DNA of 64,000 nucleotides from a virus. A program made the position numbers and the translations under genes. The notes below the pieces were generated by a model. It saw only the letters and a list, made by a program, of their open reading frames with translations. It had not been told where the DNA came from and searched no databases. Within the stretch, counting starts at the first letter, position 1. Each line of letters opens with the position of its first letter. The stretch is taken from the IMG/VR virus record IMGVR_UViG_3300042544_001590, positions 124,001-188,000 of that record. One strand, given 5' to 3'. This document shows positions 4,516 through 37,398 of this stretch, in pieces.

Positions 4516-5008
4516 TGAAAATTATCATTTTGTTCACCACATCCTGAAAGTATTTCTCATTTAGGAATGTAAGACCTTCTTTTTCCAAATATTTGTAAAT
4601 CTTGCGAAATGATGGTGGTTTGCGATTGAGGAAAGCCATCTCCAATCCAGAGATGGTTGAGCATTCCCTAATATCGATCAGGTATTCCAGATGTTCCAAA
4701 TCATAATTGGCATCCCAAATCCTGATCTTGAAGATTCGCCGGATTTTAGCCAAAAGCTGGTTGCGGAACTTATCCTTGGTAAGAGCATTGGAAAAGAAAA
4801 TGAAATCCGTGTGGGTATTGTATTTCAGGAATTGTGTCGTGGTCTTTATGAACTCATGGGTGTAGAGTTTCTTGTTATTCCGCTTGGAGAAATCAAAGGT
4901 GGTGATCAATCCAAGGGATTCCAAAAGGATTGCGAAGTTGGTATTCGTATCCCGAAATATCTCATCAATATCGATGATCTTTCTATTTTCAAATTGAATC
5001 CTTGTCAC
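4508..5008 (-). CDS. hypothetical protein downstream of a GIY-YIG gene
   Basis: A 166-residue basic protein beginning MTRIQFENRKIIDIDE, rich in Lys, Phe and Ile, with mixed alpha/beta pattern and no recognisable catalytic motif. It overlaps the end of the GIY-YIG gene by 4 nt, so the two form a translationally coupled pair served by the late box at 5471. A partner or accessory of the nuclease is possible. The family is not recognised. Confidence 0.6.
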   Translation of the reverse strand: MTRIQFENRKIIDIDEIFRDTNTNFAILLESLGLITTFDFSKRNNKKLYTHEFIKTTTQFLKYNTHTDFIFFSNALTKDKFRNQLLAKIRRIFKIRIWDANYDLEHLEYLIDIRECSTISGLEMAFLNRKPPSFRKIYKYLEKEGLTFLNEKYFQDVVNKMIIFTK

Positions 5009-5466
5009 AGTTTCAAAATAGCAGGATCACGTTCAATGTCAACAAATCCTTTTGGGATTACGCCAATGCGACAATTTAAAATGCCATTGTAAAATCTCTT
5101 GTCCAGTAAAGCATTACATTTGATCTGCCAAATTAGCTCACTGTATGTCATATGGAATTTTGAGTGACACACCTCTATCACTTCCCTTGAAAAATGCTCA
5201 ATCCCGTATTTCTCAATATCCGATAGCAATTCCTTGGACGATCCCCAATACTTCTCCACATCATTATCCACAAATGAAATGCGATTGCGTGTCTTACCTT
5301 TCAATGGTTTGCGCTTCACGCGCTTCAACAATTGCTTTTTCCCAATGTAAAAACGTCTGCTTCCTTTGTTTTGGATCACATCTGGATGATTGTTGCGGAT
5401 GAGGTAAACGAAGCCCACAACACCTTCCGTATCGGCTGGGAAATTTTTCCATGTGGTTTGCTCCAT
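5005..5466 (-). CDS. GIY-YIG endonuclease, SegE-like
   Basis: A 153-residue protein with the GIY-YIG core in the SegE-type form: VGFVYLIRN (about 16-24), RRFYIGKKQLL (about 37-47), then KYWGSSKELL and HFSREVIEVC. The catalytic Tyr/Tyr-Ile-Gly strands, conserved Arg and a Glu in YSELIWQ are visible. These nucleases act in gene mobility and marker exclusion between T-even phages. The start is fixed by a late box CTAAATAG 4 nt upstream, and a longer frame would run into the promoter. Late expression of a homing-type enzyme is unusual. No separate DNA-binding domain is visible. Confidence 0.75.
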   Translation of the reverse strand: MEQTTWKNFPADTEGVVGFVYLIRNNHPDVIQNKGSRRFYIGKKQLLKRVKRKPLKGKTRNRISFVDNDVEKYWGSSKELLSDIEKYGIEHFSREVIEVCHSKFHMTYSELIWQIKCNALLDKRFYNGILNCRIGVIPKGFVDIERDPAILKL

Positions 5467-5470
5467 TTTC

Positions 5471-5478
5471 CTATTTAG
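5471..5478 (-). promoter_or_regulatory. late promoter box CTAAATAG
   Basis: Minus-strand CTAAATAG, 4 nt upstream of the ATG at 5466. It decides the start of the GIY-YIG gene. Confidence 0.75.
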
Positions 5479-5496
5479 TGGCACGAATCCAGCTAT

Positions 5497-5515
5497 AAAG
5501 CTTATCATAAGCTTT
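5497..5515. repeat. perfect 8-bp stem-loop (AAAGCTTA / TAAGCTTT)
   Basis: A perfect inverted repeat with 8-bp arms and a TCA loop, just upstream of the late box at 5471 and at the edge of the AT-rich region. It lacks a U-tract, so it is not a classical terminator. It may be a protein-binding site or part of the putative origin. Confidence 0.55.
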
Positions 5516-7170: not shown

Positions 7171-8579
7171 TTATTTTTGACTATAAACCATCCAAACGAC
7201 AAGGACAGATCATTACCGATTCTGAAACCCTTGGTATGATTCGTAGTCATTTTTCAGTCAAGAATGACGGGGCATTTTTCGCCAAGAAGAAAGGACATAG
7301 ATTTGTCAAGGATCGAAAGTATGCCATCACTGCCACCGGATTGTTTGATTTTGGATTTCATGGGGAGATTCTGAAATATCTCAGAGACAATCAGATCACC
7401 GACATATCCCTAACGGATGCTTTCAAAAAGAGATTGAAATGTGGTGTGGGAATCGAGGAATTTTGGAATGATTTGAAATATGATGCGCGGTATTACCAGA
7501 AAGATTCAGTGATTGCTGGTCTGAAAAAAGGATTCGGGACATTTCTATTAGCCACATCTGCTGGGAAAAGTTTGGCTCAAGCCTTACTCATTGAAAATTA
7601 CACTCGAAACGTATCATTTGATACTTTCAAATGTCTCATAGTAGTCCCCGGTTTGTCTCTTGTGAACCAATTACAGGGGGATTTTGAGGATTATGGCGTG
7701 ACATTCACGTATTCAGGATGGACGGGGGGAACAGAACCTCAAGATACTCAAGTTGTGATATGCAATTCTGAGAACCTTCTTTCTCAATTTACCAACAATC
7801 CGTGGATTTTGAGCGTGAATCTGCTCATAACAGATGAGTGTCACAAGGTAGCAAGCGAGAATCAGATTTCCAAAATCATAAACAAAATCCACACACCCAA
7901 CAAATTCGGATTCACGGGAACGCTTTCCGATAAACCCATCGACCAATGGAAAACAATCGGGACATTTGGCTCCGTTATATATGAGAAGAAATCCAAGGAA
8001 CTTAGGGATGAGGGTTATATTTCCGATGTGGAAATCACAGCCCTGCAACTCAATCATCCCAAAACGATAAAATTTAAATATAAAGATGAACTGGAATATC
8101 TATACAAACACGAAAAAAGAAATCAGATCATCGCTAAATTGGCTGATTCAATCAGTGGTAATGTCCTTATCATGGTTAATCATCTTGATCACGGAGATAG
8201 TCTATTATCTCTTATGTCTTCCCGATCTGATAAAAGAGTGTTCTTTGTTAAAGGGGAAATGGAAGTGGAAAAAAGGAAAGAAATAATTGACATGATGGAA
8301 AAGAATGATAACATCATTTGTATTGCCATGGCATCCATCTTTTCAACTGGTATCAATATCAAGAATCTCCCCAATATCATATTTGCGGGACTTGGGAAGT
8401 CATTCATTCGGGTTGTACAATCCATTGGTCGGGGACTCCGGTTGCATGATAACAAATCCAAGCTACGCATCATTGATGTTTCGGATAATTTGAAGTATTC
8501 CATGTCCCATGCGTTACACAGGCAGGAAATATACGATCAAGAGCAAATTTTATGGAAAATTAAGGAGGTGTCGCTGTGA
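7167..8579 (+). CDS. uvsW: UvsW-like superfamily 2 DNA helicase
   Basis: A 470-residue SF2 helicase (T4 UvsW has 503). Visible motifs are Walker A ATSAGKS (129-135), DECH (223-226), motif III FTGTLSD near 255 and motif VI QSIGRGLR near 424, with a small N-terminal domain preceding the motor core. UvsW drives fork regression, Holliday-junction migration and R-loop removal, and helps switch T4 from origin to recombination-dependent replication. That fits a candidate R-loop origin about 1.3 kb upstream. Confidence 0.95.
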   Translation: MIIFDYKPSKRQGQIITDSETLGMIRSHFSVKNDGAFFAKKKGHRFVKDRKYAITATGLFDFGFHGEILKYLRDNQITDISLTDAFKKRLKCGVGIEEFWNDLKYDARYYQKDSVIAGLKKGFGTFLLATSAGKSLAQALLIENYTRNVSFDTFKCLIVVPGLSLVNQLQGDFEDYGVTFTYSGWTGGTEPQDTQVVICNSENLLSQFTNNPWILSVNLLITDECHKVASENQISKIINKIHTPNKFGFTGTLSDKPIDQWKTIGTFGSVIYEKKSKELRDEGYISDVEITALQLNHPKTIKFKYKDELEYLYKHEKRNQIIAKLADSISGNVLIMVNHLDHGDSLLSLMSSRSDKRVFFVKGEMEVEKRKEIIDMMEKNDNIICIAMASIFSTGINIKNLPNIIFAGLGKSFIRVVQSIGRGLRLHDNKSKLRIIDVSDNLKYSMSHALHRQEIYDQEQILWKIKEVSL

Positions 8580-8845
8580 TCGAACGTAGTAAGGAAGACA
8601 TTCAAAAGATCGTTGAAAAGTGGAGTTATCTTTTAAATGCACCGTTATCTGGTAACAAAACAGCAATGTTGATTGAATCACAAGAAAAAACATATACGCT
8701 GGATCAGGTAATAGAAAGTATTGAAGATAAAGTGTTTAAACAATATGTTGAAAATTTCAAGCACGACAATGATCATTATAATCCCGATGGATATATTTCG
8801 GTTTTAGTCAAACATCACATTAACAAACACAATATCAATTTATGA
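8576..8845 (+). CDS. hypothetical protein between uvsW and gene 55
   Basis: An 89-residue protein starting at a GTG that overlaps the uvsW stop, with a strong Shine-Dalgarno AGGAGGTG 6 nt upstream. This is one of the clearest ribosome binding sites in the window. It is mostly helical (SKEDIQKIVEKWSYLL, ESIEDKVFKQYVENF). It overlaps the start of gene 55 by 4 nt. No family recognised. Confidence 0.7.
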   Translation: MIERSKEDIQKIVEKWSYLLNAPLSGNKTAMLIESQEKTYTLDQVIESIEDKVFKQYVENFKHDNDHYNPDGYISVLVKHHINKHNINL

Positions 8846-9291
8846 CAGAAAAAAATGCCAAGAAACCACATTATGTTAATTCCAAGCTGTTCAAACAGCA
8901 ATTGGTGGAATACTATGAGACGGGAGCAAATCTGGACGAATTGGGAGTTCATCTGATGAACATTGCAGAGGGTTTGTCATATAAAATTAACTTTATTAGA
9001 TATTCTCAAAGCTGGAAATCTGAAATGATCGGGGATGCAGTTCTGAAAATGTATGCGGCTCTGGAAAAGAAATTGTATAACATCGAATCAGACTTCAACC
9101 CATTCTCATATTTCAACCGCATTGCTTGGAATGCTTTCTGCAACCGCATCAAGAAGGAGAACGGACAACACAAGGGTCTGGAGGACTACAAGGAGATGGT
9201 GTATATGGAAAGCATGAGTGGGCCAGATTCCATGGGACATGTTTACGTGAAACCGAATTTGGAGGGGGATGAATATGATGACAATGATTAA
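8842..9291 (+). CDS. 55: late-transcription sigma factor gp55
   Basis: A 149-residue protein matching T4 gp55, the highly diverged sigma70-family factor that directs host RNA polymerase to late promoters together with gp33 and the gp45 clamp. The conserved region-2-like core is visible: YSQSWKSEMIGDAVLKMYAAL (from about 54) followed by DFNPFSYFNRIAWNAFCNRI (about 82-101). It explains the CTAAATAA-type boxes through the window. The acidic C-terminus EGDEYDDND differs from the hydrophobic clamp-binding tail described in T4, so clamp contact here may be made differently. Confidence 0.9.
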   Translation: MTEKNAKKPHYVNSKLFKQQLVEYYETGANLDELGVHLMNIAEGLSYKINFIRYSQSWKSEMIGDAVLKMYAALEKKLYNIESDFNPFSYFNRIAWNAFCNRIKKENGQHKGLEDYKEMVYMESMSGPDSMGHVYVKPNLEGDEYDDND

Positions 9292-10303
9292 GAAACCTAA
9301 AATAGCACTATTTTCAGACCTTCATTTGGGTCTGTATGGAAATTCGACAGAGTGGCATGAAATCGCCTTGAAATGGGCTGATTGGATTGTGTCTGATCTG
9401 AAGAAAAAGAAGATTACGGATATATTTTTCCTTGGTGATTTCTTCCACAATCGTTCGGAGATTTCAGTCCAGACAATACATGTTGCATCAGAATTGATTG
9501 CCAAGTTCAAGGATTTCAACCTCTTGATGGTGATAGGAAACCACGATGCGTTCTACAAGAACCGTTCCGATGTCCATAGCTTGGGATTCCTCAAGGGACA
9601 TGATAACATCACCATCATTGATCAGAACTTGGAATTTGATGCATTTAATAAGAAATTGCTATTTGTCCCATGGAATCACGAATTACCCGAAGGTAAATTT
9701 GACTACATCTTTGGTCATTTTGAAATTCAAACATTCCAAATGAACAATTATAAGGTATGTGATCACGGATTCCAAGTCATGGATTTTCTAGCATCCCGAA
9801 CGACTAATGTTTGGAGCGGTCACTTCCACACCAAGAGCATCAAGAAATACAATGAAGGAACGATTCGATATATTGGCAACACATTCCACCACGATTTCAA
9901 CGATTGTGGAGATGACAAGGGTTATCACATTCTGAATCTGGAAGATGATTCCGTCGAATTTGTGAAAAATACGGTGTCTCCTGAATTTATTAAGATTCCC
10001 CTGTCCAAGATCAAGGACTACAAAGCGGAGGATGTGGAAGGAAACATAATCAAGCTAATCATTGACAAAGATGTGGAAGATGATAAGGTGGAGAAGTTCA
10101 AGATTTACCTGTCCAACTTTGCTCCTTTCCGTCTTACCACGGAATACAACGTGGCAACAAAGACAATTGGGGATGTTGAACAGGTGGATTCCATTGATAT
10201 TGTTGGTATGTTTGACGAATTTTATGAACAACTCAAGCTGGACGACGAACAATTAGTAAGAGTGAAGAAAATTAACGATGAATTGTATGACAAATGTAAG
10301 TAA
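9269..10303 (+). CDS. 47: recombination nuclease subunit gp47 (SbcD/Mre11-like)
   Basis: A 344-residue metallophosphoesterase. Metal-binding motifs are SDLHLG (16-21), GDFFHNR (56-62), GNHD (90-93), GH (149-150) and GHFH (184-187). With gp46 it forms the Mre11/Rad50-type complex that resects double-strand ends for recombination-dependent replication. Several in-frame ATGs lie at the start; the one at 9284 would begin MIKKPKIALFSDLH and is closest to the family start. It overlaps gene 55. Its C-terminal peptide (ELYDKCK) is echoed 268 nt downstream, see the repeats. Confidence 0.93.
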   Translation: MNMMTMIKKPKIALFSDLHLGLYGNSTEWHEIALKWADWIVSDLKKKKITDIFFLGDFFHNRSEISVQTIHVASELIAKFKDFNLLMVIGNHDAFYKNRSDVHSLGFLKGHDNITIIDQNLEFDAFNKKLLFVPWNHELPEGKFDYIFGHFEIQTFQMNNYKVCDHGFQVMDFLASRTTNVWSGHFHTKSIKKYNEGTIRYIGNTFHHDFNDCGDDKGYHILNLEDDSVEFVKNTVSPEFIKIPLSKIKDYKAEDVEGNIIKLIIDKDVEDDKVEKFKIYLSNFAPFRLTTEYNVATKTIGDVEQVDSIDIVGMFDEFYEQLKLDDEQLVRVKKINDELYDKCK

Positions 10304-10304
10304 T
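10280..10304 (+). repeat. gp47 3'-end repeat, copy 1
   Basis: Twenty-five bases covering the last codons of gene 47 (ELYDKCK and stop). They recur at 10548-10572 with 3 mismatches, in an order that would encode ELYEKCK and stop. Confidence 0.6.
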
Positions 10305-10541
10305 CCCCTGTTAAGAGCTTTCAAACATACAATAAAAATATCGGAACGCGAAAGAGATGTTCCCATGGAGGAATATATACACAAATATATATTAATGCAT
10401 GGAAGTTGTCTCATAATGGATAGAATCTTGAAAAGAGTTGGCGATAAGGATTCATTAACATTTGATGTTACATATATTTTCAATGATAATCCAACAGATG
10501 ATAAAATTGTCGAAGCTTTGATAAAAATAAACGCATTATAA
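10287..10541 (+). CDS. hypothetical protein, probable inserted cistron
   Basis: An 84-residue protein starting MTNVSNPLLRAF, with a helical N-terminal half (PMEEYIHKYILMHGSCLIM) and a beta-rich C-terminus (SLTFDVTYIFND). Its start lies inside the 3' end of gene 47 in another frame. A second copy of that 3' end follows the gene, so the cistron looks gained by recombination at the gene 47 tail. Function unknown. Confidence 0.6.
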   Translation: MTNVSNPLLRAFKHTIKISERERDVPMEEYIHKYILMHGSCLIMDRILKRVGDKDSLTFDVTYIFNDNPTDDKIVEALIKINAL

Positions 10542-10547
10542 TGAAAC

Positions 10548-10572
10548 GAATTGTATGAAAAGTGTAAGTGAT
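10548..10572 (+). repeat. gp47 3'-end repeat, copy 2
   Basis: A near copy (22 of 25 bases by eye) of 10280-10304. It overlaps the start of the next small gene in the same relative way that copy 1 overlaps the start of 10287-10541. Confidence 0.6.
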
Positions 10573-10791
10573 TTTGATTTGAAAAAGGTTTTTGTCGAAG
10601 AGGTCACTGAGCGTATTGGTCAACATGTTTTGGCAAGTAAGGTCAGAGATGCTACGATAGAAGATATTGAAAAAGAATTGGAAAATCATAAAAATGGTAA
10701 ATGTGGACATTCTATTGTTGAAGACACATATGGGTGGTTGTATGATTTTAGGGGGTGTGCTATTTGTGGAAAGGGACTTGGAACTGTATGA
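10555..10791 (+). CDS. small protein with Cys pairs
   Basis: A 78-residue protein starting MKSVSDFDLKKVFVEE. The C-terminal half holds CGHS, then CAIC (GCAICGKGLG), a possible zinc-binding knuckle. Its start sits inside the second gp47-tail copy, and its stop overlaps the start of the gp46 N-terminal half by 4 nt. It therefore lies between the two genes of a nuclease complex that are normally adjacent. Function unknown. Confidence 0.6.
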   Translation: MKSVSDFDLKKVFVEEVTERIGQHVLASKVRDATIEDIEKELENHKNGKCGHSIVEDTYGWLYDFRGCAICGKGLGTV

Positions 10792-11708
10792 AAAAAATAA
10801 TTTATAAAAAATTAAAAGGTCAAAATTTCCTTAGCATTGGCAACGATCAGATTGTGATTGATTTTCAATCTGGTTTCAATCTGATCACTGCTAAGAATAT
10901 CGACAACCCTGATCGCCAAAACGGGGGAGGCAAGTCAACATTGGCGGAACTTTTCTATTTCGCCCAATTTGGTAAAACCATCCGTGAAATTAAAAAGGAT
11001 TTCATCATCAACAATATCACCAAAGGAAAAGGTGCTATTGAATTGACGTTTGACGTAGAGACTGATAATGACACTCAGACATACACAATCAAGCGACAAC
11101 TCAAACCAAGCTCTGTAACTCTCTTAAAAGGAGATGAAGATATCACTAAGGATTCAATTGCCAATACTGATAAATTCATCTGTGATCTGATCGGTTCCAA
11201 TCCTGTGATCTGCCGTAGTTGTGATATTCTATCTCTTTCCGATAACATCCCGTTCATGGCGAAGAAACCAGAGGAGAAGCGCAAGTTTATCAATGATATT
11301 TTCTCTTTGGAAGTCTTTGGTAAGATGAGTAATGAATTGAAGAATCTGATTCGTGATAATAAAGGGGAGATGAACATTTCCACTGCAAGATTGGAAGAAC
11401 TTAACCACACTCTGGAAACGCTGAATGATCAGCAAGCGGATTATCTGAAGAAAGTCCAAGAACGGGAAGCAATCCTCGAACAAAAGCGTAAGGAGATCCA
11501 AGAGAAGATCGACGAAACGGAGGAAAAGATTGCTAAAATATCCATAACGGATGTCTCAACAATACAATTGGAGCAAGAGAAGTATCATGAAGCTTGGAGA
11601 AAATTGGATGGGAAGATCGGTCATGTGAACGATGCGATTTCATCCAAGGAGACTTTGAGAAAGTTGAAGGTGAAAGAAATTGAACAAATTGAGAAAGTAA
11701 CAAAATGA
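10788..11708 (+). CDS. 46: recombination ATPase gp46, N-terminal half (SbcC/Rad50-like)
   Basis: A 306-residue N-terminal half of a Rad50-type ATPase: Walker A NGGGKST (45-51), a Q-loop region, then the ascending coiled coil (about 190-306). It stops at the tip of the coil, before the zinc hook. The remainder of the protein is encoded from 12034. The TGA stop lies in the ATGA overlap with the inserted cistron at 11705. The start at 10788 is used because the residues before it do not fit the family. The two halves could assemble through their antiparallel coils and the gp47 partner. Confidence 0.9.
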   Translation: MKKIIYKKLKGQNFLSIGNDQIVIDFQSGFNLITAKNIDNPDRQNGGGKSTLAELFYFAQFGKTIREIKKDFIINNITKGKGAIELTFDVETDNDTQTYTIKRQLKPSSVTLLKGDEDITKDSIANTDKFICDLIGSNPVICRSCDILSLSDNIPFMAKKPEEKRKFINDIFSLEVFGKMSNELKNLIRDNKGEMNISTARLEELNHTLETLNDQQADYLKKVQEREAILEQKRKEIQEKIDETEEKIAKISITDVSTIQLEQEKYHEAWRKLDGKIGHVNDAISSKETLRKLKVKEIEQIEKVTK

Positions 11709-12031
11709 ACACGGAATGTGAAAATTTATCTGGAAGTATAGATATTGGAGAATACCAGAAAATGTTGGCAAGTGTCCCCAAAGCAGCTAAAGAATGTGGG
11801 ATGATTCAACATGAGGATGGATTGTATAAAATGTGGGTTGATTGTAAAGTGATTGATAAATTCACCAAAAACAAATTGTTTGGGGGTAGAAAATATTATT
11901 TTGTTCTCAATATCATGGGAATAACCAAAGAAATTCAAGTGGATGAAAATAATTACTACAATCAATCAGAGATGAATAGAATACATATGTATTCTGAAGA
12001 CCGTAAAACATGGTTCCCAACCAGACAATAA
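11705..12031 (+). CDS. unknown protein inserted into gene 46, paralogue of 18603-18935
   Basis: A 108-residue protein lying precisely between the two halves of gene 46. Residues from about 37 on (DGLYKMWVDCKVIDKFTKNK, GGRKYYFVLN, YYNQSE, KTWFPTR) match the protein at 18603-18935. The DNA is about 85% identical by my hand alignment, including an exact run of about 40 bases, while the first 35 residues are unrelated. It has no GIY-YIG, HNH or LAGLIDADG motif. A mobile or duplicated cistron is likely; its biochemical role is unknown. Confidence 0.8.
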   Translation: MNTECENLSGSIDIGEYQKMLASVPKAAKECGMIQHEDGLYKMWVDCKVIDKFTKNKLFGGRKYYFVLNIMGITKEIQVDENNYYNQSEMNRIHMYSEDRKTWFPTRQ

Positions 12032-12033
12032 AA

Positions 12034-12906
12034 ATGATTAAATGCGACAAATGCCTCCAAGATATTCCCCATACTCATGTGGAACATCTGGAGAAGATGA
12101 AAGAACAATATCAATCGGAATTGGATGATATTGTCAAGGAAATTGATGAATTGAAAGAACAAAAATCTCAATTCCATTCGAAAAAAGAAAAGGTTCAAGC
12201 TAAGGTAGCTGAGTTTCAGGATCAAATCAATGAATCGAAAGTCACCAAACAAAAATTGGAAGGTCTGGAAAACAGTCTCAAGCAATACAAAGATTCTTTG
12301 AACAACTTGAAGCTGGAAGAATTACCTAAACCAAATTTTGAGGAAAGTATTCAAAATACTTGGGTGAGACAAAATACTGAGAATGATAATTTCCGAATGC
12401 TTAAACAGAAATCAGATGATTATGAAATCTGTAAGTTCGTTCTTGGTGAAGAAGGTGTTCGTAGCTTTGTGGTGAAGAGACTTCTTTCCATGATGAACGC
12501 AAGCATTCAGCAATACATCAACGATCTTGGTATGTCCATCCGTTGTAAATTTGACGAATACTTTGATGAGCAGCTTTCCAATGACAAAGGTAAGGAGATT
12601 TCCTACTGGAACTTGAGCGGTGGTGAACGTAGAACAGTTGACCTCGCGTGTGCGTGGGCGTTCAAGGACTTGAAAAGGAAGATTTCGGGAGTGTCATCCA
12701 ATGTGGAATTTTTTGATGAATACCTCGATTCCACCCTAGATTCCACAGGAATTGATAAGTTGATCGAACAAATCAAACAACGAATTGATAGATTTGATCT
12801 TTCTGTTTATGTGATTTCCCATAGAACAGAAACCGCCAAACATGTTACAGGATCAGTAATTGAACTCGCTAAAGAAGGTGGAGTTACTAGGAGAATTTAT
12901 AATTGA
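12034..12906 (+). CDS. 46: recombination ATPase gp46, C-terminal half with zinc hook
   Basis: A 290-residue C-terminal half of gp46. It begins MIKCDKC, the CxxC zinc hook at residues 4-7, followed by the descending coiled coil (about 17-130), ABC signature LSGGERR (194-200), Walker B VEFFDEYLD (224-232) and H-loop SH (262-263). Nothing of the family appears to be missing between the two halves, which total about 596 residues. The ATG lies 2 nt after the stop of the inserted gene, so an ordinary internal Met codon seems to have become a start. Confidence 0.9.
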   Translation: MIKCDKCLQDIPHTHVEHLEKMKEQYQSELDDIVKEIDELKEQKSQFHSKKEKVQAKVAEFQDQINESKVTKQKLEGLENSLKQYKDSLNNLKLEELPKPNFEESIQNTWVRQNTENDNFRMLKQKSDDYEICKFVLGEEGVRSFVVKRLLSMMNASIQQYINDLGMSIRCKFDEYFDEQLSNDKGKEISYWNLSGGERRTVDLACAWAFKDLKRKISGVSSNVEFFDEYLDSTLDSTGIDKLIEQIKQRIDRFDLSVYVISHRTETAKHVTGSVIELAKEGGVTRRIYN

Positions 12907-12915
12907 CAAATGGAA

Positions 12916-12941
12916 AAACATGAATAAATCTCTTCATGTTT
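12916..12941 (+). promoter_or_regulatory. 9-bp hairpin enclosing a start codon
   Basis: AAACATGAA (12916-12924) and TTCATGTTT (12933-12941) form a perfect stem with an 8-nt loop. The 3' arm contains the ATG at 12936 of the glycosyltransferase gene, so translation could be blocked unless the hairpin is opened. There is no U-tract, so it is not a terminator. Confidence 0.55.
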
Positions 12942-14129
12942 CAAAAGTCTCCGTTTCCATCTCCTTTTGCTAAGAATCCCTATGCTGTAAAAAACACCAC
13001 CCAAGAACCCCCTAAAAAGGGCAACACTTATTTAAACTTCGGAGCCGATAGAGGGGGTTGTGGACAATGGCGCATAGGTTGGCCTGAATTACATATCAAT
13101 ATGTGTGGATTGGGGGATTCTTCCACCATTACCAAGATGGTTCTCAACAAGGATTGGTATCGGGATGTGAAAACCATCAAGCTCCAACGCCAATGTTCGA
13201 CTCAACAGAAAGAATTCTTTAAATTTCTCAAGAGTATCCAACCAGAATGCGGTTTCAAAATCATCTATGAAGTGGATGATGTGGTATTCCACGAAGAGAT
13301 TCCCGATTACAATTCCTACAAACACGCATTTGCTTCCGATGAGATTCGCCAGAACTGCGTGGACATGATGAACATGGCAGATGAGGTGACGGTGACATGT
13401 AAATACATGCGCGATCTTTTCATTGAGAAAACAGGACAACAAAAGACTTCCGTGATTCCCAACTTCCCTCCCGAATGGTGGATTGGTTCTCATTACAATT
13501 ATGGGAAGGTTATCCAGAACTTTGATAGGAACAAGAAAAAGCCGCGCATCCTCTATTCAGGATCGGGAGCGCACTTTGATGTGAAGAATGTCACGGGACA
13601 GCAAGATGATTTTTCCCATGTCCTGAAATTCATCATCGATAACCGTCATAAATATCAGTTCATTTTCATTGGTGCTTACCCACCTCCCCTGCATCCATAT
13701 ATCGAAAGTAAGGAAATAGAATTTCATCCATGGCAATCCCTGATGGATTATCCGAAGTTCATTGCTTCTTTGAATCCCCAATTGCTTCTTGCACCCCTGA
13801 AGGATATTCCGTTCAACAGGTCAAAGTCTGATATCAAATATATTGAGGGAGCTTGTTTGGGTATCCCCTGTATGGTTCAGGATATGGTGACGTATCAGGA
13901 TGCTCCCGATTTCCTAAAATTCACGGATTCCACCGATTTGGAACAGAAAGTGGAGACAATTCTGAATTGGAAGAACCGTTTCAAGTATTACAAGCTGGTT
14001 CCCGAGTTGAGAAAGCTTGGGGAAAGCAGATTCCTTGAAAGACCGGAGAATATCGGAGCGTTTATGGAAGCCCTGAATACACCATTCGGTGATCCTTCTC
14101 GCAGATTCATGAAATATTGGAATGATTAA
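12936..14129 (+). CDS. glycosyltransferase, GT-B (GT4-like)
   Basis: A 397-residue protein resembling GT-B fold glycosyltransferases of marine T4-like phages. Features are an N-terminal Gly-rich loop GADRGGCGQWRIGWP, the EVDDVV strand near 111, VTVTCKYMRDLF, then the C-terminal donor domain with RILYSGSGAHFDV, FIFIGAYPPP and SDIKYIEGACLGIPCMV, the position of the sugar-nucleotide contact. The acceptor may be a virion protein or modified DNA base; the sequence does not decide. The ATG lies within a 9-bp hairpin. It converges on 14126-14407 with a 4-nt overlap. Confidence 0.75.
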   Translation: MFQKSPFPSPFAKNPYAVKNTTQEPPKKGNTYLNFGADRGGCGQWRIGWPELHINMCGLGDSSTITKMVLNKDWYRDVKTIKLQRQCSTQQKEFFKFLKSIQPECGFKIIYEVDDVVFHEEIPDYNSYKHAFASDEIRQNCVDMMNMADEVTVTCKYMRDLFIEKTGQQKTSVIPNFPPEWWIGSHYNYGKVIQNFDRNKKKPRILYSGSGAHFDVKNVTGQQDDFSHVLKFIIDNRHKYQFIFIGAYPPPLHPYIESKEIEFHPWQSLMDYPKFIASLNPQLLLAPLKDIPFNRSKSDIKYIEGACLGIPCMVQDMVTYQDAPDFLKFTDSTDLEQKVETILNWKNRFKYYKLVPELRKLGESRFLERPENIGAFMEALNTPFGDPSRRFMKYWND

Positions 14130-14407
14130 TTCTTACCAAATTGGGAATATTGAGCGAGCGTTGGGCGGAGCCTTTCAAACATACCTTTTAAGTTTTCAAA
14201 GCTATTCATATTCGAAGGATTATTGAAAAAGGCTTTTTTATTGTTTTGGTAAAAATTGATAGTTCCTTTTAGATAATTTTCAATATACGAACAAAGTTCA
14301 TGCGCCTTTGCCTTGACTTTTTCTGTCTGTGGGTCATAATCATCGTAGGATGATTCCATATCAAGATTTTCGTAAATCATACTCAAGTCTTTGAAATAAT
14401 TATCCAT
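14126..14407 (-). CDS. late cargo-like protein
   Basis: A 93-residue helical protein beginning MDNYFKDLSMIYENLDMES, nearly the same leader as 27254-27751 (MNNYFKELGLIYENIL). After an acidic linker comes a helical domain with ELCSYIENYLKGTINFY and LKGMFERLRPTL. A late box lies 4 nt upstream of the ATG. A head-internal protein is inferred from leader and promoter. Confidence 0.7.
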   Translation of the reverse strand: MDNYFKDLSMIYENLDMESSYDDYDPQTEKVKAKAHELCSYIENYLKGTINFYQNNKKAFFNNPSNMNSFENLKGMFERLRPTLAQYSQFGKN

Positions 14408-14411
14408 AACA

Positions 14412-14419
14412 ATATTTAG
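14412..14419 (-). promoter_or_regulatory. late promoter box CTAAATAT
   Basis: Minus-strand CTAAATAT, 4 nt upstream of the ATG at 14407. Confidence 0.75.
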
Positions 14420-14442
14420 TGAATGATGTGGTGAATTATAAT

Positions 14443-15843
14443 TTATCTACTTATTTCTTCCCAGTCTATTGAGCCATGAACAAATTCTGTGTTTGTGCTT
14501 GCTGTTACAGCTAATGTTAATTCATAAGGTGTGCTTGTAAAGCTATTTCTCTCAAGTTGAAACTTGAACAGAGCTTCTTTAAGAATGTCTATCGATGTTG
14601 CTCCCTGAGCATTGGAAGTAAAATATCCTGATGCTAATACTCTACCTCCCGATAGACTGGTTCCATCTAGTTTATATTCCACGGAGGAATTAACTCCTGC
14701 ATCAGTCCATGTACCGCCAGAAGTCGTTCCAGATGCAACCACTTGCCACTTGTAGATACCCGTATTGACCCCCATTAGCGACAACGCAGTTAGAATTACA
14801 ATACCATCTAATCTTGTTGATTTTAACCGTATGGAAACGATAGGATAAAAGGTTCCTGCTGTTGTAAGAGCTTTGGGAGCAGTTATTGTCGTACCTGCTG
14901 CTTGTTGCAATCCTCTTAACTCATAACCACCCTCCGAAATAACTGTACTACAAACTTGTTTTAATTTACTTGAACCTGAAGTTGCAGCTTTATTTTCAAT
15001 TTCATATCTAAGCGGCAGTGACCCCGTTGTAATGTATGTCGTGTCAATCAAGTTAGCGTGATGGAAGTAATGACAAGGTACAAACTGACCATTGATAACA
15101 AATCCTGTTCTCACAGAGCCTAATCCGAGCCATTCGATGTCAATCCATAGAATTTGAGCCTTTGTAATATCAAGTGTGATACCAGATGAACCCGACCCAT
15201 CCAAGCGATCTACATTCCATTGCGATTGTGGGACACGAGTTTCAGTGAGCGAGCCTGATGTAATGCTACGTTCAACCACGTAAAGGGTATTGTCATCCAA
15301 TTCCAAGTAGATACCATTATCAGTGCCAAAATACCCAACACGTTGTCTAAGATTTGTTTTAGCTTGGTTAAAAGTAAATGTGCTTAAAATTTGTAAACTT
15401 TTACCGGGTTGATAAGCAAACACTTTTGTGGTTTCACGATATATTTTAGAACCGCTTAGAGCATCAACTTTCAATTCAACAATACCTTGCGTTTGGATAA
15501 ATTGTGCAGAAGCGGAGGTTGTTGTAGTTCCTCCTGATAATGTTGACCAGAGATTATTATCTGCATACCTATGAGACGAATCGAAAAGAGTCAAAGGACT
15601 TGATGTTCTCGTTCTTCCAAATGCATCACTCGCCATGTTGTAATTACCGCTAAAGTTGGTCGAAGTGTCATCGATATTTTTCACCAAAACCGCATATTTC
15701 GGATATTCGACTATTTGAGTAGAGCCAAAAGATGGATCGGACACTGCCGATGTTGCTGGGAATCTGGCATCATTTACGATCTCAACAAATTTTCCGCTTT
15801 CGGTATTTGCGGCATTTGTCCACACTTTAGTATTAATTGCCAT
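14443..15843 (-). CDS. virion structural protein
   Basis: A 466-residue beta-rich, Ser/Thr-rich protein beginning MAINTKVWTNAANTESGKF. The stretch DAFGRTRTSSPLTLFDSSHR (about 72-91) is characteristic of a structural protein family frequent in marine T4-like phages. No signal peptide, membrane segment or enzyme motif is seen. Size, composition and late promoter suggest a fibre, decoration or tail-surface protein. The exact location in the virion cannot be told. Confidence 0.7.
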   Translation of the reverse strand: MAINTKVWTNAANTESGKFVEIVNDARFPATSAVSDPSFGSTQIVEYPKYAVLVKNIDDTSTNFSGNYNMASDAFGRTRTSSPLTLFDSSHRYADNNLWSTLSGGTTTTSASAQFIQTQGIVELKVDALSGSKIYRETTKVFAYQPGKSLQILSTFTFNQAKTNLRQRVGYFGTDNGIYLELDDNTLYVVERSITSGSLTETRVPQSQWNVDRLDGSGSSGITLDITKAQILWIDIEWLGLGSVRTGFVINGQFVPCHYFHHANLIDTTYITTGSLPLRYEIENKAATSGSSKLKQVCSTVISEGGYELRGLQQAAGTTITAPKALTTAGTFYPIVSIRLKSTRLDGIVILTALSLMGVNTGIYKWQVVASGTTSGGTWTDAGVNSSVEYKLDGTSLSGGRVLASGYFTSNAQGATSIDILKEALFKFQLERNSFTSTPYELTLAVTASTNTEFVHGSIDWEEISR

Positions 15844-15913: not shown

Positions 15914-18418
15914 ATGTATAGAAATTGTGTGTATGATCAAAAAAATCGTAAAATTTTTATTTGGACTTGGGACGAAAACGGGGAGCGAATCCGCGAAGAA
16001 CATGATTTCAAGCCATACATCCTTTTGGAAGATAAAAAGGGAACGGAGAAGTCCATTTATGGCACGGCTCTCAAAAAACGCGAATTTCAATCCAGCTATG
16101 ACAGGAATAATTTCGTCAAGGATAGTAATATCAAGCGAATTTACGAGAACCTACCACCATATCAACAATTCCTAATTGACAATTATTGGTCGGTTTGTGA
16201 GAATGATAATTTCTCCCAATATCCCCTGAAGGTGGCTTTTTTTGATATTGAATGTCCCGGAATATCCTTTCCAGAACCAGAATTGGCGGAATCAGTGATT
16301 AACCTGATCACGATCTATAATTCTGAGTCCAAGATGTATCATGTATTTGGTTTGAAAGATTTCCACACCATGAGAGATGATGTGAAGTATTATCGGTGTA
16401 AATCCGAAGAGGACTTGTTGAAATCGTTTATCAAATACCTTCAAAAGGAAGGTTTTGATGTTCTCAGTGGATGGAACATAGCAGCATTTGATGTTCCTTA
16501 TCTTGTAAATCGAATCACTTTCCAATTGGGAAAGGAATGGGCTGATAAGCTGTCCCCAACGGGTAGGATTTACGAAAAGACCAATCCAAATGGTAAATTT
16601 GGGATGCCTTCCAAGGAGTATGTGATTGAAGGGCTATCAATTTTGGATTATTATGTGATTTATCAGAAGTTCAATTTGGAGAAACAGGAATCGTATAAAT
16701 TGGATAATATTGGGGAAGTTGAATTGGGAATCAATAAGATTCAACACGAAGGCAATCTATGGGAACTCATGAAAAATGATTGGAACACTTACACGGATTA
16801 CAATATACGTGATGTGGAAATCGTTGTGGGGTTAGATCAGAAAAAGGGGTATATTAATCTAATCCGATTCCTTGCATATACTGGATTATGTGATCTGGAA
16901 AGCGCGATTAGAACACTCCCGGCAATGAACGGGGCAATTGCCATACGCGCCCGTATGCGGGGGGAATACATTCCTACGTTCATTCGTCCCGTGACGGACT
17001 ACCGCGCCCCCGGTGGGTATGTGGCAGAGCCAAAAATAGGTTTTGCGGAGAATATCGTATCCTTTGATGCCAACTCTCTGTATCCATCGGTTATGATTTC
17101 CCTGAATCTCTCCCCCGAAACGAAAATCGGAAGGGTTGAGAAGGATGGAGATAAAGTGAAAATCCATCATGTATCAGGTAGATTGTTTGAGATGACTCCT
17201 GAGAACTTCAAGAAATTTATTGATGAGGAGCAAGCGGCATTAACTAAAGCAGGATTTCTCTTCTCTCAGAAGAAACGTGGTCTGGTTCCCGAATTCCTTG
17301 ACAATCTTTACACCAAACGGAAGGAAATGAAGAGTAAGATGATGGAATGCCGCAAGAAGGGGGATAAAGAAGGGGAGCAGAAATTCGACAGCATCCAATA
17401 TGCTTACAAAATCCATCTCAATTCCCTCTATGGATATATGCTCAACAAATACGCTCCCCTTGGAGATGAGGATATTGGAACATCGGTGACACTGACGGGA
17501 CAAGCGGTAATCAAGAAGAGTAATGATCTGTTTCAGGATTATGTGAGGGAAAATCTACCGGATTTGTCAGAGTCCTTATTGCAACAAAGTTGTGTTTACG
17601 GTGATACGGATAGCTTTTTCGTTTCCTTGAAAATGTTTGGCATGGATGCTAAATCTGATGAATTTTATGAATTATGTGAAGATATTGAAAATTATATCAA
17701 TGAACGAATCATTGAATGGGCTAGAAAAGCTCTGAGAAGCACTGATCCTCGCTTCGTATTCAAGCGGGAAACCATCTGTGACGCGGGAATCTTCATTGGT
17801 AAGAAATATTATGTCCTTCATGTTCTGGACGATGAGGGAACCAAGGTGGATAAGTTCAAGTATCGGGGGGTTGATGTCGTAAAAACCACAATGCCCAAGA
17901 AGGTGAAGCCTTATGTCAAGAAAGTCATTGAACATATGATCATGTCCCAATCTTTGAAGGAAACCAATGACATGTTCAACGAGGCTTACGAGGAATTCAA
18001 GAATCTGTCCATTGCGGAGATTTCCAAGATTTCGGGTATGAACAACTTTGCGGAATATTCGGCTAGGTGTAATGGTATGAACACCGTGAAAGGTATGCCA
18101 TCCCATCTCAAAGCTGCTTATTTTCATGACATGATCATGGAACAGAACGGATGGGGTTCCAAATACGAGAAATTCAAGACGGGGGATAAGGTTCGCATGG
18201 TTTATGTTAAGAAACCCAACAAATACAATTTGGAAATGATCGGATTCAAGGGTGGTTGGCCGGAAGAATTTGATAACATTTTCACTGTTGACTTTGAAAA
18301 GATGTTTAGTAAAGTCTTCTATGCAGCGATTGAGAGATTTTACGAAGCGGTCGGTTGGAAACTCAGAAAACCTAGCGAAAATCTCACCGTAGAATTGGAC
18401 GACTTGTTTGGCGAATGA
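15914..18418 (+). CDS. 43: DNA polymerase gp43, family B with 3'-5' exonuclease
   Basis: An 834-residue replicative polymerase (T4 gp43 has 898). Exonuclease motifs are FDIE (110-113), GWNIAAFD (186-193) and YNIRD (296-300). Polymerase motifs are A DANSLYPS (385-392), B LNSLYGYM and C YGDTDS. The C-terminus LDDLFG resembles the T4 gp43 tail that binds the gp45 clamp. The ATG at 15914 is preferred because an earlier in-frame ATG at 15896 lies inside the promoter. The gene is not split or interrupted. It heads the rightward operon leading to uvsX. Confidence 0.97.
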   Translation: MYRNCVYDQKNRKIFIWTWDENGERIREEHDFKPYILLEDKKGTEKSIYGTALKKREFQSSYDRNNFVKDSNIKRIYENLPPYQQFLIDNYWSVCENDNFSQYPLKVAFFDIECPGISFPEPELAESVINLITIYNSESKMYHVFGLKDFHTMRDDVKYYRCKSEEDLLKSFIKYLQKEGFDVLSGWNIAAFDVPYLVNRITFQLGKEWADKLSPTGRIYEKTNPNGKFGMPSKEYVIEGLSILDYYVIYQKFNLEKQESYKLDNIGEVELGINKIQHEGNLWELMKNDWNTYTDYNIRDVEIVVGLDQKKGYINLIRFLAYTGLCDLESAIRTLPAMNGAIAIRARMRGEYIPTFIRPVTDYRAPGGYVAEPKIGFAENIVSFDANSLYPSVMISLNLSPETKIGRVEKDGDKVKIHHVSGRLFEMTPENFKKFIDEEQAALTKAGFLFSQKKRGLVPEFLDNLYTKRKEMKSKMMECRKKGDKEGEQKFDSIQYAYKIHLNSLYGYMLNKYAPLGDEDIGTSVTLTGQAVIKKSNDLFQDYVRENLPDLSESLLQQSCVYGDTDSFFVSLKMFGMDAKSDEFYELCEDIENYINERIIEWARKALRSTDPRFVFKRETICDAGIFIGKKYYVLHVLDDEGTKVDKFKYRGVDVVKTTMPKKVKPYVKKVIEHMIMSQSLKETNDMFNEAYEEFKNLSIAEISKISGMNNFAEYSARCNGMNTVKGMPSHLKAAYFHDMIMEQNGWGSKYEKFKTGDKVRMVYVKKPNKYNLEMIGFKGGWPEEFDNIFTVDFEKMFSKVFYAAIERFYEAVGWKLRKPSENLTVELDDLFGE

Positions 18419-18606
18419 TAACACAATTAAATCCCACGATACCAGTAGTCACCCCAAAAGGGAAGGGTTACGCACATCTGGTCATAGATTATTCCCAAGA
18501 ACATGATTTATATTGGGTTTGTTTTATAAATGATACGAAAGAATGCTGGACATTTGGGAATTCTGAGATAAGAATAGATGACAACATAACATTACAGAGA
18601 AAATGA
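18415..18606 (+). CDS. small conserved phage protein
   Basis: A 63-residue beta-rich protein with GKGYAHLVIDYSQEHDLYWV and KECWTFGNSEIR, a pattern seen in small phage proteins encoded near replication genes. It overlaps the gene 43 stop by 4 nt and the next gene by 4 nt, so it is translated as part of the operon. No function is known to me. Confidence 0.7.
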   Translation: MITQLNPTIPVVTPKGKGYAHLVIDYSQEHDLYWVCFINDTKECWTFGNSEIRIDDNITLQRK

Positions 18607-18935
18607 AAATTGAAACGAATTATCAGTGCATTTCTGGAGTATGTGATGCAAGTCATTTTGATCACTATTCCAAAGACTCAATCCAATTGGCACAAGAACG
18701 AGGACATTGGCCATACGAAGATGGTCTATATAAAATGTGGGTTGATTGTAAAGTGATTGATAAATTCACTAAGAACAAATTGTTCGGGGGTAGAAAATAT
18801 TATTTCGTTTTGAATCTTATGGGAACGACGAAAGAACTTCAAGTCAATCAAAGCAATTACTATAATCAATCTGAGGTGAATGAGATACATGTGTATTCCG
18901 AAGACGGTAAAACATGGTTCCCAACCAGAATATAA
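18603..18935 (+). CDS. unknown protein, paralogue of the gene-46 insert
   Basis: A 110-residue protein whose residues from about 39 (DGLYKMWVDCKVIDKFTKNK through KTWFPTRI) repeat the protein at 11705-12031. The N-terminal 38 residues differ and carry two Cys (CISGVCDASH), so a common body is joined to different heads. It starts in an ATGA overlap with the upstream gene, exactly as the other copy does. No nuclease or known domain is visible. Confidence 0.8.
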   Translation: MKIETNYQCISGVCDASHFDHYSKDSIQLAQERGHWPYEDGLYKMWVDCKVIDKFTKNKLFGGRKYYFVLNLMGTTKELQVNQSNYYNQSEVNEIHVYSEDGKTWFPTRI

Positions 18936-21498: not shown

Positions 21499-21604
21499 AA
21501 AAGGTATCCACTTGTTTCATGGTGATTGCTTGGAAGTCCTCAAAAAGATTCCAAGCAATTTTTGTAATGATCACCAATCGCTATTAAGATTATCTTTCGG
21601 GTAA
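21488..21604 (+). pseudogene. DNA methyltransferase N-terminal remnant
   Basis: An open frame of 38 codons starting at the ATG overlapping the uvsX stop. Residues 7-24 read IHLFHGDCLEVLKKIPSN, which is the N-terminal HGDCLEVLK-IP(D/S)NS motif of N4/N6 DNA methyltransferases, normally followed by the DPPY catalytic region. After SN the sequence turns into unrelated residues and stops, and the DNA becomes the 3' end of the convergent Mom-like gene. The gene has evidently been cut off by replacement of its body. Confidence 0.75.
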
Positions 21605-22215
21605 GGCATTGGTTTGTGTTTCAATTCACTTATTATTCTTTTACGGTCTTTTTTATGTAGAATGTAAACGTATCTATGTTTTTTCTTTATTTTGACCCTT
21701 TCATAATTGGGATCAATTTTAAGCAATTCTTCGCGTTTAATCGTGTTATATACAACACAAACACTTCTTTGATTTGTGAGTTTTCCATTTATTCTATGTA
21801 AATAACCTTGTCCAAGCGAAAGGTTATTACCTTGATATATCCAATTCGTTGCTTGATAAATAGTTCCTAAATGATTCGCCATTGGATCGGAATAACTGAC
21901 CAAAACTTTTATATTGGTATTTTTTCTCAACCAATCAAAGGTTTTGCCTATGAAATAGCTTTCACTATTTTTAGGTGCTTCATCAACAAGCCACAATCTT
22001 TTCAGTTCCAAAACATCTTTATTCTCTAAATTGGGGGTAATGGATTTAACAGTTTGTCTGCCAACGGGAAACCCATACACGGCAACACCGATCAAATTAT
22101 CCTCATCAAATAATCCCAATGAATACCTAGAAGGAGTCCAACTGTGGGAATAGTGGTTTTCCTTTATTAACTTTTTCGCCAAGTTTGTATCTATTAAATC
22201 AATCGTGTAATTCAT
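21571..22215 (-). CDS. Mom-like DNA modification protein (adenine acyl-type modification)
   Basis: A 214-residue protein resembling the Mom family, GNAT-related enzymes that convert adenine in phage DNA to a bulky carbamoyl-methyl form and block restriction. Motifs are LIKENHYSHSW (about 17-27), LIGVAVYGFPVGRQ (about 41-54), LELKRLWLVDE, NSESYFIGK, LVSYSDP and HLGTIYQATNWIYQG. The C-terminal tail is basic. Its 3' end overlaps the methyltransferase remnant. There is no late box; 11 nt separate it from the upstream late gene, so read-through expression is likely. Identity is from motif recall, not a search. Confidence 0.65.
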   Translation of the reverse strand: MNYTIDLIDTNLAKKLIKENHYSHSWTPSRYSLGLFDEDNLIGVAVYGFPVGRQTVKSITPNLENKDVLELKRLWLVDEAPKNSESYFIGKTFDWLRKNTNIKVLVSYSDPMANHLGTIYQATNWIYQGNNLSLGQGYLHRINGKLTNQRSVCVVYNTIKREELLKIDPNYERVKIKKKHRYVYILHKKDRKRIISELKHKPMPYPKDNLNSDW

Positions 22216-36048: not shown

Positions 36049-36439
36049 TATTTTTCTGGACGACATTCGGTTTCCCAAGGATGCTTTTCTCCAAAAAGAA
36101 TTGGCATATCTCACGGAATATTCTAAAATTCCTGAAAACGAATGGGTGATCGTGAGGAATTATGAGGATTTTGTGAAAACGATTGAAGAACGCGGTATTC
36201 CAGCGGCAGCGAGTTTTGATTGTGATTTAAATTCTGAACATTTTAGACATTATGTTAAGGATAGTATTAATTCCGGTATTTATGAATGGGAAAATTTCAA
36301 ATCTAAATGTGGAATTCATTGTGCTTTATATTTGAAATCTTTATTGTGTGATGGAGATGACACAAAAGTTTTTATACATAGTGCTAATATTATTGGTAGT
36401 ATGATTATTAGAGAAATGATGAGGGCATATTTATTTTAA
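36038..36439 (+). CDS. cyclic-phosphate processing receiver-like domain (cREC)
   Basis: A 133-residue protein matching the cREC family: IFLDDIR at the N-terminus (acidic pair), WVIVRNYEDF, ASFDCDLNSEHF where the family usually has SFDHDL, and HSANIIG near the C-terminus. The family is predicted to act on RNA or nucleotide ends with cyclic phosphate and is frequent in phages. The Asp-His to Asp-Cys change in the second motif is notable. It converges with the homing endonuclease, overlapping by 4 nt. Confidence 0.75.
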   Translation: MKYNIFLDDIRFPKDAFLQKELAYLTEYSKIPENEWVIVRNYEDFVKTIEERGIPAAASFDCDLNSEHFRHYVKDSINSGIYEWENFKSKCGIHCALYLKSLLCDGDDTKVFIHSANIIGSMIIREMMRAYLF

Positions 36440-37398
36440 ATATTTTTATTTTTTGGGATTAAAATCCATCCTTTATGTATTCCTGTTTTTGATGGTTTGT
36501 TTTCTTTTCCAGCTTTTGCTAAAAAATTAAAATCCAAATTTTTTTCTCTACAAAATTCCGCGACATTATGTATTAAATATTCCTCTCCAGTGTAAATATT
36601 TTTAATAATTCTTTTAGTTTCTTGAAAAGAATCAATATTTTTTATAAATTTTTCATATTTTCTATCTAATCTAATAGATTTTGTAGAATCTTTATAAATC
36701 CATTCCAAAAATTTGAATGCATCTTTTTGAATTGATATACTACAAAGGTTTACATATTTAGTATAATATATTTCTTGAGTTGTTATCTCTATGGTTTTTA
36801 GATAATCTTTAATAAAAATTAGACATTCTGAAGTGCTTAGAAGATTTATTCTGTATCTGTTATTGATAATAGTAACATTACCATCTCCATCAAATATACC
36901 CCTAACGAAGTGTGAATAATATTTTTCTTCGATAATTGGAAATTTAAAAGATTTTGATTTATTTTCATCAACACCGTGATTTTTTATATATTGGCAAAAT
37001 TCTTTAGAATTGACTTGTAAAAATTCTATATCATAGGTTTTTCCTGTACGTTTGTCATATCTATTGATACTTGAAATTGGACTTCCAGAATCTATAGCCT
37101 TTTTAAATTTTGGTAAAACATCTTTATCCTTTACACCAATAGTTAATTTATAGCCAGATTTTTGAATACATCCATCTGCAACAATAAAACCCAACCAGTA
37201 AGCTTTTTCGGCAGAATCAATTTTTTCGAAATATTTTATATCTAATGATCTTTTTCTCATAGGTGTTGGAATTCCATTAGAATCTAATATTTTTTTGATA
37301 TGTCTAACTGTTATGTTTAAATTCTTAGAAACCTTACTCAAACTTTGGAGCTTGAGGTATTCATCTATAACTGTTTGATGTTTTATAAATTCTTTCAT
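36436..37398 (-). CDS. free-standing LAGLIDADG homing endonuclease
   Basis: A 320-residue protein. An N-terminal helix-turn-helix (SLSKVSKNLNITVRHIKKIL, about 18-37) is followed by two LAGLIDADG helices, AYWLGFIVADGCI (about 66-78) and FVRGIFDGDGNV (about 162-173), and a C-terminal DNA-binding tail (ITGEEYL-type, FCREKNLDF). The gene is more AT-rich than its neighbours, opposite to them, and fills an intergenic site, which marks recent entry. It is not inside an intron or intein: both flanking genes are intact. Confidence 0.88.
   Translation of the reverse strand: MKEFIKHQTVIDEYLKLQSLSKVSKNLNITVRHIKKILDSNGIPTPMRKRSLDIKYFEKIDSAEKAYWLGFIVADGCIQKSGYKLTIGVKDKDVLPKFKKAIDSGSPISSINRYDKRTGKTYDIEFLQVNSKEFCQYIKNHGVDENKSKSFKFPIIEEKYYSHFVRGIFDGDGNVTIINNRYRINLLSTSECLIFIKDYLKTIEITTQEIYYTKYVNLCSISIQKDAFKFLEWIYKDSTKSIRLDRKYEKFIKNIDSFQETKRIIKNIYTGEEYLIHNVAEFCREKNLDFNFLAKAGKENKPSKTGIHKGWILIPKNKNI

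Follow-up and report, generated by a model that had tools for sequence, protein, structure and literature searches.

Several core genes of T4-like phages are known in split form, namely nrdA (Aeh1), gene 43 (44RR and phage 25), and genes 39/60 (T4) (PMC2988022). The two-piece reductase (nrdA) and the two-piece polymerase (gene 43) are active in T4-like phages, and for gene 43 the authors of that review suggest that a filler may enter an already split gene (PMC2988022). In the case of Rad50, the question of whether the hook must be continuous is normally studied using engineered mutants and chimeras, such as hook-for-hinge swaps (PMC6969161). In addition, the thermodynamics of a Rad50 hook have been resolved into −20.4 kcal/mol for the zinc-cysteine centre, −5.8 for the hairpin, and −2.1 for the coil, and the zinc-cysteine centre thus accounts for most of the stability of the hook dimer (PMC5093744).

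Here, we describe gp46 (phage Rad50/SbcC) of a group of uncultured T4-like phages. We propose, with a probability of about 0.75 judged from the sequences, that it is a naturally split and most likely functional two-chain protein, and that the junction between its halves serves as an exchange site for small genes. No report of a split gp46 or a hook-split Rad50 was found in the literature that we searched (open-licence papers). Such a gene bears on the question of whether the Rad50 hook is an obligatory continuous hairpin or a mere meeting place of two coil ends and a zinc ion.

Position of the break and conservation of the two halves

The window analysed in this study is a stretch of 64,000 nucleotides from a virus record of 207,489 bp. 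An earlier note on this DNA had claimed that gene 46 is split at its zinc hook into two cistrons flanking a 108-codon gene, and the reading frames were confirmed at the claimed positions. The features of the region are as follows:

9269..10303, + strand: gp47 (Mre11/SbcD-like nuclease subunit), the partner of gp46; phrog_100, E 1.8e-67
10287..10541, + strand: small ORF of 84 aa in the gp47/gp46 junction; its start overlaps the end of gp47; no family match
10555..10791, + strand: small ORF of 78 aa between gp47 and gp46, with a stop that overlaps the start of the gp46 N-half (ATGA)
10788..11708, + strand: gp46 N-half, 306 aa; Walker A and the ascending coil up to the hook loop
11705..12031, + strand: inserted cistron (filler A), an orphan of 108 aa; ATGA overlap with the stop of the N-half
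12034..12906, + strand: gp46 C-half, 290 aa; CxxC hook near the N-terminus, descending coil, signature, Walker B, and H-loop
18603..18935, + strand: paralogue of filler A, 110 aa, 63-65% identical

Both halves match different stretches of one SbcC-like phage family, phrog_77. The N-half was assigned from positions 293-561 of this family, Pfam AAA_23, and the alignment with intact gp46, and the C-half from positions 629-951 and a motif check. The gene lies directly downstream of gp47, the Mre11-like partner. However, the head, coil, and hook, which share a single polypeptide in gp46, Rad50, and SbcC, are here divided between two cistrons with stops between them.

The junctions are as exact as had been claimed. 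The N-half ends with ...EIEQIEKVTK and the stop TGA at 11706-11708, the ATG of filler A overlaps this stop (ATGA), and the C-half begins with MIKCDKC..., 2 nt past the TAA of filler A. In the window, the N-half ends ACAAAATGA; in alleles with fillers B-E (described below), it ends ATATGA, and the next ATG lies inside this ATATGA. An alternative in-frame ATG at 12010 would give a C-half of 298 aa (eight more residues). The start at 12034 is favoured because all seven split alleles have ATG-ATH-AAA-TGY at that place as the beginning of the C-half.

A scan of IMG/VR using the C-half as query yielded 71 relatives, and gp46 was one continuous frame in 41 of the 41 non-split relatives examined. In the intact genes, the counterparts of N304 and C2 are separated by exactly three residues (...KEIDKFSSV-EDG-IQCDKC...), and the window also has three residues (T, K, M) at the place of EDG. 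Furthermore, the two halves add up to 306 + 290 = 596 residues, the length of the closest complete intact gp46 (596 aa). The claim that no residues were lost is therefore upheld, and a missing middle segment, looked for in the alignment of both halves with the intact relatives, is absent. A split intein was also considered and rejected, with only the three residues T, K, and M between the homologous parts and no intein family match.

In an AlphaFold2 model of the intact gp46 of L006, built with 31 sequences (mean pLDDT 73, with low values in the loop), residues 257-302 and 319-396 are helical, and residues 303-318 form the loop that contains the invariant cysteines, 310 and 313. The break therefore falls inside the hook loop, and the first cysteine of the invariant CxxC is four residues further on. 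A fold search matched Rad50 and SMC proteins. In addition, the last residues of the N-half are EIEQIEKV in most split alleles, whereas they are EIDKFSSV in intact genes; this change may be an adaptation to a free C-terminus.

To estimate the spread of the split, the split-type start pattern (MIKCDKCLQ followed by D or E) was searched in IMG/VR, and it was found in 16 further contigs from 15 metagenomes. With this recurrence, the split cannot be an assembly error confined to one sample. One of these contigs, L002, is identical to the window over both halves. After merging identical or nearly identical copies, there were seven distinct split alleles (window/L002, L003, L014, L015/L016, L017 and its copies, L028, and L029). 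Meanwhile, no obvious hook split was seen in 60 records sampled from 3,629 isolate records with gp46 homologues. Two suspected isolates, phiKp_17 and CPX, were rejected on inspection, as gp46 is one-piece in both; they also carry a small ORF in the gp47/gp46 junction.

The ABC head is bipartite, with Walker A (NGGGKS) in the N-half and the signature (LSGGE), Walker B (VEFFDE), and H-loop (ISHR) in the C-half. CDKC, the CxxC hook at the tip of the antiparallel coil, is present in all split alleles, and zinc binding is predicted. The reading frame of each half is open in every one of the seven alleles. All seven encode Walker A, the hook, and the signature; Walker B and the H-loop are found in the six alleles with contigs long enough to include them. 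The median pairwise dN/dS (Nei-Gojobori) of the split alleles was 0.080 for the N-half and 0.074 for the C-half, compared with 0.119 and 0.072 in intact relatives. Purifying selection on both halves is thus as strong as in intact relatives (dN/dS about 0.08), and part of the divergence behind these values may have arisen in intact genes, because split and intact alleles recombine. Since the motifs are kept and both halves are under purifying selection, the halves are most likely working proteins. The two-piece Rad50-type ATPase that the earlier note had envisaged would fit this conservation.

In the whole-gene tree, the split alleles are scattered, which we read as the outcome of recombination rather than of many origins. 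Identity along gp46 is mosaic between split and intact alleles, and in a permutation test, the split alleles did not consistently resemble one another outside the junction. Because gene segments move between split and intact alleles, the body of the protein would work alike in both versions.

Contents of the hook junction and its neighbourhood

Five different contents (A-E) occupy the same hook junction:

Filler A, in the window: orphan of 108 aa
Filler B, in L015-L022, L024, L025, and L029: orphan family of 102 aa
Filler C, in L003: ORF of 70 aa without a stop, in frame into MIKCDKC
Filler D, in L014: GNAT acetyltransferase of about 155 aa
Filler E, in L028: remnant of 48 nt
L003 4791-5861: filler C and the gp46 C-half as one in-frame run without a stop

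The fillers are 48 to 469 nt long, and their GC content is 26-33%, compared with 36-39% in the gp46 halves. The hook half of L003 may carry a 70-residue N-terminal extension from filler C. About 1.4 kb behind gp46, the same contig has a partial second gp46 C-terminus (7289-7402, 38 codons, 63% identical). In two contigs with filler B, a 697-aa open frame was suspected and rejected, as nine stops were found between the halves.

The resident cistron had been taken to be what split the gene, and this claim is not supported. The five unrelated fillers share one junction, and the flanks of the window and L003 are nearly identical (94-98% in the final 200 nt of the N-half, 92-100% in the first 650 nt of the C-half), whereas their fillers are unrelated. 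Mainly because of this comparison, the split is better read as older than the present insert, the filler having been exchanged while the split stayed. None of the 17 split records has a split allele with an empty junction, so that this split-first order is inferred. The gene was probably split once, as argued from the shared junction codons, not from the tree. Subsequently, the hook junction probably became an exchange site for small AT-rich cistrons, as at the neighbouring gp47/gp46 junction.

The gp47/gp46 junction is itself variable. The two genes directly overlap in L003, L006, L009, L012, L013, and L064, and other relatives have assorted small ORFs there, with HNH-like ORFs in L008, L026, and L072 (those of L026 and L072 gave weak Pfam matches). 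In L015 and L029, this junction holds a 94% homologue of the ORF at 10555..10791. In the window, the two small ORFs of 10287-10791 are joined by a five-codon mini-ORF (10541-10558), and near-copies of GAAYTGTATGA from the end of gp47 lie at each joint, as if cassettes had been inserted at the overlap or had copied it.

Filler A had no match in isolate phages (tblastn), PHROGs, Pfam, NCBIfam, or the genome contigs, and nothing convincing among PDB chains. Its only match in IMG/VR was a contig identical to the window, and its AlphaFold2 model was unusable (pLDDT 42). The paralogue at 18603..18935 belongs to a series of coupled small ORFs that follows the DNA polymerase gene. At 18415-18935, a small ORF overlaps the polymerase stop (ATGA) and the paralogue follows through another ATGA overlap; the central parts of filler A and the paralogue are nearly identical. 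Meanwhile, filler B is under purifying selection (L017/L035, dN 0.12, dS 1.38), and L035, in which gp46 is intact, has a homologue of it (80% identity) between gp47 and gp46.

Fillers A-D gave no match to a homing endonuclease family (HNH, GIY-YIG, LAGLIDADG, or other). Elsewhere in the window, there are a free-standing LAGLIDADG-type endonuclease gene (36436-37398, − strand; Pfam LAGLIDADG_3), a GIY-YIG gene matching the SegE family (5005-5508, − strand; Pfam SegE_GIY-YIG), and a match to the Mom DNA-modification protein family (21571-22215, − strand; Pfam Mom, E 7e-56).

Proposed origin and working of a two-chain gp46

We propose that the stop/start overlap arose once from hook codons through a small change, and that the three cistrons are translated in a coupled manner, with ribosomes re-initiating on the filler after finishing the N-half and then again on the C-half. 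Separate translation of the halves would be needed because there are several stops between them and the frame offset varies (0, 1, 2) across alleles. The two chains would then pair through the ABC head, to which the N-half gives Walker A and the C-half the signature and Walker B, and the antiparallel coil would offer a second pairing surface. As the CxxC is supplied by the C-half alone, the zinc hook could still link two gp46 molecules, and the hook could survive a single backbone break in its loop because the zinc-cysteine centre dominates its stability (PMC5093744). The two-chain gp46 would work with gp47 as usual. Moreover, because the hook junction tolerates an extra cistron, small accessory genes would have come to be exchanged there, as at the gp47/gp46 junction.

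Splitting usually inactivates a gene, and it might be supposed that the split gp46 is decaying or dead, with the phage relying on host SbcCD or another copy. We consider this improbable, since the halves are open in seven alleles, the motifs are kept, dN/dS is about 0.08, and no second gp46 copy that could rescue it was found in the virus record (G000; possibly incomplete). It is even harder to credit that one full-length gp46 is still made through RNA or intein splicing, readthrough, frameshifting, or ribosomal bypassing. The exact junctions would permit such a product, and the gap of 48 nt in L028 is near the size of the bypass in T4 gene 60, which is 50 nt. However, an Rfam scan of 8800-14500 found no intron and no group I intron core, no intein family was matched, and there are no extra residues at the ends of the halves. 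In addition, the N frame meets several stops, the offsets are 0, 1, and 2 in different alleles, and the fillers, from 48 to 469 nt long, have conserved ORFs.

Homing deserves more weight as the origin of the break, and it remains the less probable account. A mobile endonuclease gene would have split gp46 at the hook, and the present ORFs would be later replacements or decayed remains. Core genes of T4-like phages have been split by homing insertions, such as mobE in Aeh1 nrdA (PMC2988022). HNH-like ORFs occur in the adjacent gp47/gp46 junction of L008, L026, and L072, the window contains LAGLIDADG and GIY-YIG genes, and the filler of L028 resembles a remnant. However, the fillers match no endonuclease family, one of them (filler D) being a GNAT acetyltransferase, and no endonuclease was seen at the hook junction in 17 of the 17 records. 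A co-conversion tract would make the split alleles unusually similar near the junction, and no consistent excess identity of this kind was found there. Over most of gp46, they were no more alike than expected; the value of P = 0.018 in one of the 14 windows (−228 to −114) lost significance on correction, and the sub-window closest to the break was too short to compute. It has also to be asked whether the fillers are functional partners of gp46/gp47, placed at the hook for co-production or tethering. The filler of L003, which runs without a stop and in frame into MIKCDKC, and the purifying selection on filler B would agree with this, but the fillers are mutually unrelated, and we regard it as unlikely in general. 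For fillers A and B in particular, a hook-specific role is unlikely because filler B adjoins an intact gp46 and the paralogue of filler A follows the DNA polymerase gene.

A split, two-chain gp46 with an exchangeable filler thus remains the preferred reading, and the hook-split gene would be a natural test of what holds the Rad50 machine together. The backbone cut at the hook appears to be kept by selection in several phage alleles, for which the intact sister alleles are matched controls. An internal point of a core recombination gene behaves like the boundary between two genes: unrelated small genes replace one another there, and the enzyme is preserved. This suggests that a split core gene does not need a homing endonuclease between its halves in order to persist. 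As a rather speculative extension, a hook-split Rad50-type ATPase with free arm ends might be a platform for exchangeable proteins acting on Mre11-Rad50. In this doubtful proposal, such proteins would be mounted through coupled translation or, as in L003, through direct fusion.

Comparison with known split genes

Like other genes in pieces of T4-like phages, gp46 is continuous in relatives and split here, with a small ORF between the halves and no homologous part lost. The nrdA gene of Aeromonas phage Aeh1 is likewise a T4-like core gene in two, with a small gene between (PMC2988022). The two-piece ribonucleotide reductase of Aeh1 is active (PMC2988022), whereas the activity of two-piece gp46 is predicted from purifying selection and the conserved motifs. 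Furthermore, the filler of Aeh1 is the homing endonuclease mobE, while gp46 is a Rad50-type ATPase with several unrelated fillers, none a recognisable endonuclease.

In gene 43 (43A/43B) of Aeromonas phages 44RR and 25, the contents of the gap differ between related phages (PMC2988022), as they do at gp46. However, the enzyme is a DNA polymerase, and there are two contents, an untranslated spacer or a seg endonuclease, compared with five at gp46. Genes 39/60 of T4 (topoisomerase large subunit, with mobA) also correspond to a single chain in relatives and have a small gene between them, but the enzyme is different and the filler is a mob-type endonuclease.

Nearer to the locus itself, T4-like phages have small ORFs between gp47 and gp46 that overlap or abut their neighbours and vary among relatives, like those of the hook junction. 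However, that junction separates two genes, and the hook junction interrupts a stretch that relatives encode as a single gene.

For crystallography, recombinant Rad50 heads have been built as separate N- and C-segments, and the two pieces form a working ATPase head without the connecting hook. These proteins are engineered and lack most of the coil, whereas the cut in gp46 is natural, lies at the hook, and leaves full coils. The split gp46 is thus different from known split genes in its enzyme, a Rad50-type ATPase, in the zinc-hook position of the break, and in the number of unrelated non-nuclease fillers.
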